Origin: Spirochaetales bacterium
GTDB taxonomy: Bacteria; Spirochaetota; Spirochaetia; Sphaerochaetales; Sphaerochaetaceae
Assembly: GCA_028722305.1 (NCBI GenBank)
Contig: JAQYHB010000002.1
Location: 1-64,000, forward strand
DNA: 64,000 nt
Direction of reading: 5' to 3'
In this document: in pieces, positions 40,399 to 43,209 of the stretch
Layout: each line of letters starts with the position of its first letter
Position numbering within the stretch: position 1 is the stretch's first letter
The notes under the pieces: generated by a model
Database searches by the model: none
Seen by the model: only the letters and a program-made list of their open reading frames with translations
Told to the model about the DNA's origin: nothing
Position numbers and translations under genes: made by a program

Positions 40399-41192
40399 AA
40401 ACCACCCTCTACGTGATGAGCGCCACCGGCAACAGCCTGTACGTGGCGCAAAAGCTGGCCCAGTCGCTCGGAGAGAGCGAAATCGTGCTGCTACCCGATG
40501 GCAGACCTGTCACGCTTACCGAGCGTGTCGGCATCATCGGGCCGGTCTATGATGGATTTCCCTCTCCCCCGATCGTCGACTTCCTCAAAGGCCCCTTCCT
40601 CCAGGCGGACAAGAGTCCTGTCAAATACCTGTTCTGCCTGCATACCTGCGGCAAGGCCCCCGCTTTCGCGCCCCAGATTCTCGAAAAGCTCGTGACCGAC
40701 GCTGGGTGCGCACCCAGCTACCAGAATTCGGTGCGGATGATCGACACCCATGTGGGGATGGTGCCGATGCGGGGCAAGCGCGACTGGAAGCCGATGCTCG
40801 ACGAGGCGGATAGGAAGCTATCCAGAATCGCCAAGGAAATCGACGAGGGGGCTATCCGGGTTCCCTCCCGGCGCATGCTTGCGGGCTTCGCCTTCAGGTT
40901 TCTCATGCCCAGAGCGCACAAGAGGCAGGCAAGTACGGGAAAGTACCTTTCCTCCAGCGATGTCTGCATCTCTTGCGGAGCCTGCGCCCAGATATGCCCC
41001 ATGTTTGCCATCACCATGGAAAAGAAACCCAGATTCGGAGCTGGCTGCATCGGTTGTTTCGCCTGCCTGCTCTCCTGCCCGAAGCAGGCGGTCCTCTACC
41101 AAATGAGGAACTGGCAAGCATCCTACGTCAACCCCCGCAGCCACATCGAAACCTATAGGAGTGCCAAATGGAAAACCAATTCGACCAAGTAG
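40395..41192 (+). CDS. EFR1-type flavodoxin-ferredoxin protein
   Basis: Redox protein of 265 residues. The N-terminus MKTTLYVMSATGNSLYVAQKL is a flavodoxin-like FMN-binding loop (SATGNS). The C-terminus has two 4Fe-4S motifs, CISCGACAQICP and CIGCFACLLSCP. This is the EFRO/EFR1 architecture found in anaerobes; the partner reaction is unknown. The true start is 40395, overlapping the aroA stop; the longer open frame upstream is a shadow of aroA. The following gene starts 25 bases before its end. Confidence 0.9.
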   Translation: MKTTLYVMSATGNSLYVAQKLAQSLGESEIVLLPDGRPVTLTERVGIIGPVYDGFPSPPIVDFLKGPFLQADKSPVKYLFCLHTCGKAPAFAPQILEKLVTDAGCAPSYQNSVRMIDTHVGMVPMRGKRDWKPMLDEADRKLSRIAKEIDEGAIRVPSRRMLAGFAFRFLMPRAHKRQASTGKYLSSSDVCISCGACAQICPMFAITMEKKPRFGAGCIGCFACLLSCPKQAVLYQMRNWQASYVNPRSHIETYRSAKWKTNSTK

Positions 41193-42412
41193 TGGACCGC
41201 GCCAACACGCTATCCGTCAAATGGAATAAGGAGGCGATCAAGCAGTTCTGCGCCAATCCGGACGCGGAACCCTTCTGGGTCGCGGACATGGATTTCCGTG
41301 CCGCAGGAGAAATCAGCGACGCGGCGCTCACCGCGGCCAAAAGCGGAATCTACGGATATCCGCACTTCGATGGAGTCAAGGAGGCCTTCTGCGACTTCGC
41401 GAACCGGCGCCACGGCACCCACTTCACCCCGGGGGAGGTGGTCACCTTCCCCGGCGTGCTGGTATCGGTCAGCATGCTGATACAGTTGCTCACACGGGAG
41501 GAAGACGGGGTGATCGTACCGCTCCCGGCCTACAAGCCCTTCCTGGACATCACCAAGAACCTGAACCGAAAGCTGGTTCCCTGGCCGATGCGCTATGACT
41601 CGCGAAACCACCGCTTCTCTCTGGACTGGGAGAACTTCGACACCGTGGCGGAACAGGCAAAGCTGCTCCTCTTCTGCTCTCCGCAGAACCCGAGCGGAGA
41701 CGTATTCGGAAGGGAAGAGCTGGAGAAGCTGGCGCGCAAGGCAAGCGAGCACCACCTTGCCGTCATCAGCGACGAGATCCATGCCGACCTCTCCTACACC
41801 AAGCACATCTCCATGGTGGAGGTGGCGGAAACCTATTCCTTCCCGTGCGCCGTCTGCATGGCCCCTTCGAAGACATTCAACGTCGCGGGAGAGCATTTTT
41901 CCGTCGTCGTCACCCATGACAAGGAACTGAGGAACCGGATGGAGGTCATGAAGGAACAAAACCGGATTGGAGAGACCTCCTTCTTCTCCACCACCGTTGC
42001 CCTTGCCGCGTACCGGCATGGATACGACTGGCTGATGGAATTGATCCCCTATCTGGAAGGCAACGCGGCCCTCATCGAGTCCTACCTTTCCAGGCACTGT
42101 CCCGAACTGGTCTTCGTCAAACCGAACGCCAGCTTCGTCGGTCTGATCGATTGCTCCCAAGTCCTTCCCCTGATGCAAAAGGACGAAAAGGCGCATCCCG
42201 ACCTGTACGACCCGAAGCTCAGCCCCATGGGGGGAACGGCAAGCCGTTTCTTCGGCATCAGGGCACGGGTCTGCTGCAACGACGGCACCTGGTTTGGCGG
42301 AGGAGACGCCTACCGCGGCTTTGTCCGCTTCAATTACGGAGTACGCAGGGCAAGCGTCCTTGGGGCAATCGGGCGCATGGCCGATGCAGTCAACCAGCTC
42401 AAGCGTGGCTGA
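41168..42412 (+). CDS. PatB/MalY-type PLP enzyme (C-S lyase or aminotransferase)
   Basis: Fold-type I PLP enzyme of 414 residues. Features are FWVADMDFRAAGEI near the start, FPGVLVSVSMLIQLL, SPQNPSGDVFGREEL, VISDEIHADLSY and the PLP lysine in MAPSKTFNVAGEHFS. The VADMDF and EIHADL signatures fit cystathionine beta-lyase/PatB-MalY proteins over general aspartate aminotransferases. Likely role is release of sulfur from cysteine-type substrates. It overlaps the EFR1 gene by 25 bases, making an aroA-EFR1-PatB transcription unit. Confidence 0.9.
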   Translation: MENQFDQVVDRANTLSVKWNKEAIKQFCANPDAEPFWVADMDFRAAGEISDAALTAAKSGIYGYPHFDGVKEAFCDFANRRHGTHFTPGEVVTFPGVLVSVSMLIQLLTREEDGVIVPLPAYKPFLDITKNLNRKLVPWPMRYDSRNHRFSLDWENFDTVAEQAKLLLFCSPQNPSGDVFGREELEKLARKASEHHLAVISDEIHADLSYTKHISMVEVAETYSFPCAVCMAPSKTFNVAGEHFSVVVTHDKELRNRMEVMKEQNRIGETSFFSTTVALAAYRHGYDWLMELIPYLEGNAALIESYLSRHCPELVFVKPNASFVGLIDCSQVLPLMQKDEKAHPDLYDPKLSPMGGTASRFFGIRARVCCNDGTWFGGGDAYRGFVRFNYGVRRASVLGAIGRMADAVNQLKRG

Positions 42413-42415
42413 CCC

Positions 42416-42468
42416 TTGCCATTCCTAGGCGAAGATACTATAGTTGAGTTATTGGCATATGCCAATAA
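42416..42468 (+). promoter_or_regulatory. Promoter with 20-bp palindromic operator before the DUF134-NifX gene
   Basis: TTGCCA (42416-42421), a 17-base spacer, and TATAGT (42439-42444) form a strong promoter. The perfect palindrome TTATTGGCATATGCCAATAA covers 42449-42468, over and just after the predicted start site. AAGGAG then precedes the ATG at 42481. The placement is that of a repressor site, presumably for the DUF134 helix-turn-helix encoded by the gene itself. Confidence 0.75.
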
Positions 42469-42480
42469 TAAGGAGCTATC

Positions 42481-43209
42481 ATGCCTCGCCCCATACGCGC
42501 CAGAATCATCTACCGGAACCCTTGTTGCCGCCGATTTGAGCCGGTACCGGCCTCGGATGTCCGCATCAACCTGACGATGGACGAGCTGGAAGCGCTCCGA
42601 TTGGTCGACCTGGTACAGCTGGACCAGCAGTCGGCCGCGGAGCGCATGCAGGTAGGTCGAAGCACGATGCAGAATATCTTGGAAAGCGCGCATCAGAAAG
42701 TCGCCCAAGCGCTCGTCAACGGCACCATCCTCACCATCGATGGAGGGACCGTCGCCTTTGGCGAGGACAAGGGCTGGGGGTGCGCGCGGGACGGAAGATC
42801 CGTCAAGGAAGGAACCATGAAGATTGCAGTACCCTATGAGAACGAGATGGTTTTCCAGCACTTTGGAAAAAGCGAGCAGTTCGCCATCTACACTGTCGAG
42901 GAGAACACGGTCAAGCAACGCGAGGTAGTCGGGACAAACGGACAGGGCCATGGAGCCCTCGCCGGCCTTTTGAGCGGACTGGATATCGATGTCGTCATCG
43001 CCGGCGGAATCGGTGGAGGGGCCATCACAGCCCTGCAAGCAGCCGGAATCACCTGCTATGCCGGCGCGCAAGGAAAGTGCGACGACCTGGTCCAGGCCCT
43101 GCTCGAAGGCAGACTTGTCCAAGGAGACCAGCCCACCTGTGGGTGCCACCACCATGATGATGGGTGCGGGCAACACGGGCACGGATGCGACTGCGGGCAT
43201 CATTGCTGA
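42481..43209 (+). CDS. DUF134 DNA-binding protein fused to a NifX/NafY-like domain with Cys/His tail
   Basis: Fusion of 242 residues. Residues 1-95 are a DUF134 domain with a sigma-like helix-turn-helix (LTMDELEALRLVDLVQLDQQ, then AAERMQVGRSTMQNILESAH). Residues 112-215 are a dinitrogenase iron-molybdenum cofactor biosynthesis domain (MKIAVPYENEMVFQHFGKS; VVIAGGIGGGAITAL). The last about 25 residues are a metal-binding tail with six Cys and seven His. Homologues occur in many non-nitrogen-fixing anaerobes. A metal- or cluster-sensing autoregulator is a reasonable inference given the palindrome at its promoter. Confidence 0.9.
   Translation: MPRPIRARIIYRNPCCRRFEPVPASDVRINLTMDELEALRLVDLVQLDQQSAAERMQVGRSTMQNILESAHQKVAQALVNGTILTIDGGTVAFGEDKGWGCARDGRSVKEGTMKIAVPYENEMVFQHFGKSEQFAIYTVEENTVKQREVVGTNGQGHGALAGLLSGLDIDVVIAGGIGGGAITALQAAGITCYAGAQGKCDDLVQALLEGRLVQGDQPTCGCHHHDDGCGQHGHGCDCGHHC

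Follow-up and report, generated by a model that had tools for sequence, protein, structure and literature searches.

IscR and SufR are Fe-S autoregulators: each combines a helix-turn-helix with a cluster-binding part and controls its own gene together with other Fe-S genes. NifX and NafY, which are PF02579 proteins, bind Fe-S clusters and pass them on. IssA, another protein of this family (NifX/NafY/ORP/IssA; IPR003731), stores iron and sulfur (PMC5524996). DUF134 (PF02001; UPF0251; COG1342) is a predicted DNA-binding family: in the literature searched, which included few subscription journals, we found no account of a DUF134 regulator or of its operators, nor any DUF134 in the text of PMC6345978; earlier work may exist. 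The gene described here joins the two families in one polypeptide. It lies in a window of 64,000 nucleotides (the whole stretch of DNA that was analysed) from a Spirochaetales bacterium and shares with IscR and SufR a helix-turn-helix and a predicted cluster-binding part that would act on its own gene and on Fe-S genes, but the protein families and operators are unrelated and cluster binding by the fusion is predicted from its sequence. To a DUF134 family without an established function in that literature, the analysis adds a candidate operator, a correspondence between helix and site, and candidate targets.

The fusion gene, its promoter and its product

The fusion gene (42481-43209, + strand; 242 aa, from the ORF and Pfam) belongs to a 2.7-Mb genome that is 95% complete; the closest named relative, the uncultured Spirochaetaceae RUG023 (a rumen MAG), encodes a fusion protein that is 93% identical. 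An earlier note on this DNA had pointed to a strong promoter, TTGCCA-17-TATAGT, followed at the predicted start site by a perfect 20-bp palindrome, and both features are borne out. The -35 hexamer TTGCCA (42416-42421, + strand) and the -10 hexamer TATAGT (42439-42444, + strand) match the consensus at 10 of 12 positions, their counterparts in the sister genome being TTGCAA and TATCTT; the palindrome, TTATTGGCATATGCCAATAA (42449-42468), covers the predicted start site and ends 12 bases before the ATG at 42481, with a ribosome-binding site, AAGGAG (42470-42475, + strand), read from the sequence in between. A gene for a PatB-family C-S lyase-like protein (41168-42412 of the window) ends 68 bases 5′ of the fusion gene and is itself preceded by an EFR1-type ferredoxin gene; the lyase could be a sulfide source for the adjoining Fe-S protein, or a mere neighbour. 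A MATE gene begins about 120 bp 3′ of the fusion gene, and a search for an intrinsic terminator 3′ of the fusion gene found none, which leaves room for cotranscription of the two.

The same note read the product as a sigma-like helix-turn-helix, a NifX-type domain and a tail with six Cys and seven His; Pfam and residue counts agree. The DUF134 domain (residues 3-90; 42487-42750, + strand) is full length and matches PF02001 at 72.2 bits against a curated cut-off of 27 (E 5e-20); it is sigma-region-4-like, and a relative also matches Sigma70_r4_2. Its recognition helix, GRSTMQNILES (residues 59-69; 42655-42687, + strand), shows the family-wide covariation with operator half-sites described below. 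The NifX/NifB/ORP-type domain (residues 121-208; 42841-43104, + strand) matches PF02579 at 76.9 bits (cut-off, 26.3; E 2e-21) and contains a conserved HFG motif at 127-129. The tail, VQGDQPTCGCHHHDDGCGQHGHGCDCGHHC (residues 213-242; 43117-43206, + strand), holds all six Cys and seven His that follow residue 212 and has no Lys, Arg, Phe, Tyr or Trp. Since separate NifX proteins (L027-L030) also bear a Cys/His tail, it belongs to the NifX part. An AlphaFold model built from nine sequences is weak overall (mean pLDDT 61) and is relied on for no more than helix-turn-helix secondary structure and the NifX match: it places helices at 33-44, 49-55 and 60-80, in a region that is fairly confident (pLDDT 76-91 in ten-residue blocks from residue 31 to 80), and Foldseek matches its second half to PH0822, the NafY core and ORP. 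By sequence, the PF02579 part matches TM1816, PH0822, TM1290 and NifX; for DUF134, a search for a PDB chain that matches by sequence gave no clear hit (best E 0.94).

Is the fusion a known PF02579 protein under another name? It carries the domain that defines the family but adds a DNA-binding domain. A nitrogenase NifX requires components of the NifD/K/E/N type, and a genome-wide search for these returned a single PF00148 match, below the cut-off (23 versus 28.6 bits); the earlier note stated that no nitrogenase genes are near, and above the cut-off there is none in the genome either. IssA has a long, cationic tail rich in Gly and aromatic residues (PMC5524996), unlike the Cys/His tail of the fusion, and MrpORP, a P-loop ATPase with PF02579 (NF041136), is matched at 82 versus 450 bits and over its C-terminal part only. 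"Self-contained", as the note called the system, is apt: the genome holds one DUF134 gene, one PF02579 domain and one operator, TTATTGGCATATGCCAATAA being the sole match in the window and in the whole genome at up to three mismatches. A search for a wider regulon in the same genome with the core TTRRCATATGYYAA at two mismatches gave 29 matches, fewer than the 45 of the reversed control, so no further sites are claimed there; the one site with a single mismatch (C39), 5′ of an S-adenosylmethionine synthase-like gene (named from its translation), looks like chance.

Distribution of the candidate operator

How much weight can one palindrome bear? By chance, about 0.06 perfect 20-bp palindromes are expected in 64 kb (4^-10 per position); a lone one is thus not very rare, and its significance comes from its conservation. 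In the sister genome, 19 of its 20 bases are kept, as against 24 of the 35 bases immediately 5′ of it. The identical 20-mer precedes a DUF134-NifX fusion in another family (G101, L066), and other fusions of the class have near-identical symmetric sites directly 5′ of them: TTATTGACATATGTCAATAA (L054), TTATTAGCATATGCCAATAA (L048), TTACTGGCATATGCCAATAA (L056) and TTATTGACTTATGTCAATAA (L067). Outside the class, DUF134 genes are preceded by TTATTAGCATATGCTAATAA in Omnitrophota, TTATTGACATATGTTCAAAA in Ruminococcus and TGGCATATGCCA in Prodigiosinella. In the order to which Prodigiosinella belongs, Enterobacterales, 30 DUF134 genes were examined: 22 have a site centred on CATATG no more than about 130 bp upstream, and in two of these (L235, L241) the site is TTATTGGCATATGCCAATAA itself. 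The earlier note had staked its idea on the palindrome being conserved in relatives with the gene, and the idea has survived in four lineages.

A class-wide scan of 395 genomes with the pattern TTATTRRCATATGYYAATAA, allowing one mismatch, finds 37 sites in 31 genomes; the control, the same pattern read backwards, finds none. DUF134 is present in 133 of the 395 genomes, including all 31 with a site, while none of the 262 genomes lacking DUF134 has one (hypergeometric p 2e-16 by genome and 6e-6 by genus, kinship ignored). Comparison of coordinates shows that 30 of the 37 sites precede a DUF134 gene at a distance of up to about 430 bp. That the palindrome is an accident beside an ordinary NifX-like protein, as the expectation of 0.06 might be taken to allow, is contradicted by the cross-phylum conservation, the empty control and the co-occurrence with DUF134, and its probability is negligible. 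Counting against the operator reading, only 66 of 155 DUF134 genes, and only 10 of 35 fusions, carry in the 150 bp before the gene a palindrome that pairs at 7 or more of 8 positions; many siteless genes lie inside operons or in GC-rich genomes, though this is no proof.

The other seven sites, not 5′ of DUF134 genes, hint at additional targets: four precede NifX or Mrp genes. Sites lie 5′ of a DUF5320-NifX-NifX cluster (G027:C80, L139), of a NifX gene (G093:C45, L097) and, as two copies 45 bp apart, of a NifX-ParA/4Fe-4S-ParA/4Fe-4S-NifX operon (G306:C4, L272); another is 19 bp upstream of an Mrp/NBP35 gene (G306:C17, L271). One genome, G306, by itself has a set of four loci: Mrp, the NifX-ParA operon, DUF5320-DUF134 and a fusion of DUF134 with NifX. 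Further sites are found 5′ of a pyridine-nucleotide-disulfide oxidoreductase gene (L100/L277), about 260 bp from a gene for a thioredoxin-like [2Fe-2S] protein (L082/L274) and, with one mismatch, between divergent DUF1847 and ACT-domain genes (L140/L275), far from that genome's DUF134 genes; two-mismatch sites precede more NifX genes (L081, L095, L141). A genus-g3 genome (G004) has two sites 40 bp apart 5′ of DUF5320-DUF134-NifX-ParA-ParA-MBL-Mrp. The earlier note underestimated the scope of the palindrome: it is a family-wide candidate operator for DUF134, not particular to the spirochaete fusion, and is also found 5′ of separate NifX, Mrp and DUF5320 genes. These gene kinds (NifX-type, 4Fe-4S-motif ATPases, Mrp) are shared with the Desulfovibrio ORP operons and MrpORP, but the orp promoters depend on sigma-54, whereas the DUF134 operator sits on sigma-70-type promoters (PMC6345978, PMC3897727).

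Many genomes encode DUF134 and NifX separately, within one operon. Their neighbours in the order of Prodigiosinella (L221, L234, L241 and others) include a thioesterase-superfamily gene divergent from DUF134 and, sometimes after NifX, NqrM, which adjoins NifX in L221 and serves Na+-NQR maturation. In Prodigiosinella itself (L033, 3700-4000), an FTR1 iron permease gene is divergent from DUF134-NifX and the gap between the genes holds two sites centred on CATATG; a Fur-family gene follows DUF134 in L219. A separate observation concerns L147 (100-1300): ORFs there consist of SLPARERGLK repeats and resemble a CRISPR array in translation, and a ParA/4Fe-4S gene that has a two-mismatch operator lies nearby.

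Recognition helix and half-sites

If DUF134 proteins bind these palindromes, operators should differ as recognition helices do. The sites of the 66 genes were picked by the generic pairing rule, blind to the protein sequence; after removal of redundancy at 80%, 55 remained. Among these, operator distance rises with the distance between recognition helices (Mantel r 0.32, p 1e-4). The relation persists when the remainder of the domain is controlled for (partial r 0.28, p 2e-4), and that remainder adds nothing once the helix is given (0.016). Helix SRPTFTRL goes with GAACATATGTTC or GAACTATAGTTC, SRSTFTRL with GCACATATGTGC, SRxTCxRI with GAGAATATTCTC, QRL/QRI with GTGCATATGCAC, FGRI with GAGCATATGCTC, and TAM/ASI/QGI with TTGACATATGTCAA or TCGACATATGTCGA; helices with a Cys, such as SRATCARI (L014, L059, L158, L164, L166), go with a different palindrome, TGAGAATATTCTCA, usually at a near-consensus promoter. 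The xNI class, to which the spirochaete fusion belongs, goes mostly with TTGGCATATGCCAA or TTAGCATATGCTAA, and the fusion pairs its xNI helix with GCATATGC, a combination shared by most members from Enterobacterales and Omnitrophota. The code admits an exception: L096 combines the xNI helix SRATFANI with TTGACATATGTCAA. The pattern is that which direct recognition would be expected to produce, and because the half-sites covary with the recognition helix, the fusion protein very probably binds the palindrome. If the code is true, swapping GRSTMQNIL for SRPTFTRL would shift its preference to TGAACATATGTTCA.

Mode of control and the role of the NifX part

What would binding achieve? The recurrence of the palindrome 5′ of related genes in other phyla indicates that the gene very probably controls itself, and autoregulation of DUF134 genes through the palindrome is well supported by these comparisons. 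The direction is suggested by position. A promoter was predicted for 44 genes; in 34 of them the palindrome and the -35, spacer, -10 or start region overlap, in six it is upstream and in four downstream. Because most sites cover part of the core promoter, DUF134 probably represses. Such scattered, promoter-overlapping positions would suit steric repression, though position alone is no proof; of the autorepressor claim in the earlier note, autoregulation stands on conservation across four lineages, and repression is read from operator placement. In L091, L092 and L103 the right half of the palindrome is the gene start, with ATGCCAAGA encoding the conserved DUF134 N-terminus Met-Pro-Arg, so that operator and coding sequence overlap. 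The likeness of the helix-turn-helix to sigma region 4 could instead mean that DUF134 binds the palindrome as an autoactivator or a sigma-like initiation factor, which we regard as improbable: sites are spread over the spacer, the -10 and +1, only 6 of 44 lie upstream of the -35, and several of the promoters have near-consensus -35 and -10 elements, a picture that suits steric repression. Might the palindrome be no protein site at all and act as a hairpin in the 5′ leader RNA, controlling stability or translation? It stands at the predicted transcript start, directly 5′ of the ribosome-binding site, and when folded as RNA gives an 8-bp stem around a 4-nt loop (-9 kcal/mol, z -2.0), but in relatives 11 of 44 palindromes fall in the -35/-10 spacer, outside the transcript, the palindrome sequence tracks the recognition helix of the protein, and tandem copies occur about 40 bp apart; after folding and comparison of operator positions, this option was set aside as very unlikely.

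The harder question is what the NifX part does. Short DUF134 proteins without a NifX domain exist, so the NifX part need not be a sensor and might just carry clusters under the control of DUF134: DUF134 would autoregulate, the NifX domain and tail would merely carry or store Fe-S or metal, and the sensor would lie elsewhere or control would be autogenous dosage control. The frequent arrangement of DUF134 and NifX as separate genes in one operon fits this account, as do carriers and stores such as IssA in the NifX family (PMC5524996); against it, fusions turn up across the class, in several of its families, with HFG and C220/H223 retained (H127, C220 and H223 are each present in more than 80% of 35 DUF134-NifX fusions), which suggests that physical coupling of the domains matters. 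On balance we judge it unlikely, though it is the most serious of the alternatives. That the NifX domain and tail sense metal or an Fe-S cluster is a plausible idea in view of the domain itself, the conserved tail and the NifX, Mrp, NqrM and FTR1 neighbours; neighbours and putative targets touch iron or Fe-S handling (Mrp, ParA/4Fe-4S, NqrM, FTR1, Fur-family), and iron or an Fe-S cluster is a first guess for the ligand.

The mechanism that we favour, and hold to be likely as a whole, is that the fusion is a one-component transcriptional autorepressor with cluster- or metal-responsive DNA binding; computation shows the domains, the palindrome and how widely it is conserved, its association with DUF134, NifX and Mrp genes, and the helix-operator covariation, while we infer binding, dimerisation, sign of control, sensing and ligand. 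The DUF134 helix-turn-helix, presumably dimeric, would bind the palindrome over its own transcription start and block RNA polymerase; the NifX-type domain and Cys/His tail would bind iron, some other metal or an Fe-S cluster; and their occupancy would alter DNA binding, so that the cell keeps the level of this cluster-binding protein in line with supply. The pairing of DUF134 and operator may, in relatives, control separate NifX, DUF5320 and Mrp/ParA Fe-S-carrier genes, whereas in the spirochaete fusion, regulator, sensor and sole target would be one gene.

What is new here, and well supported by sequence comparison, is the scope of the candidate DUF134 operator: family-wide, cross-phylum, with Fe-S carrier genes as putative targets. 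A broader generalisation is tentative: DUF134 proteins may be cross-phylum one-component regulators of Fe-S trafficking genes (NifX, Mrp/ParA, DUF5320) with a readable helix-operator code, the fused NifX being a ligand sensor that detects Fe-S through a nitrogenase-maturation fold. A DUF spread from spirochaetes to gammaproteobacteria and archaea gains a likely function, a candidate binding site and testable targets, and the helix-operator correspondence allows targets to be predicted from sequence. The NifX and Mrp proteins seemingly under DUF134 control serve anaerobes as Fe-S carriers and are poorly understood; the spirochaete circuit, with its single gene, may offer a minimal case for cluster sensing by a NifX domain, within what appears to be a widespread, unstudied regulator of iron-sulfur handling.
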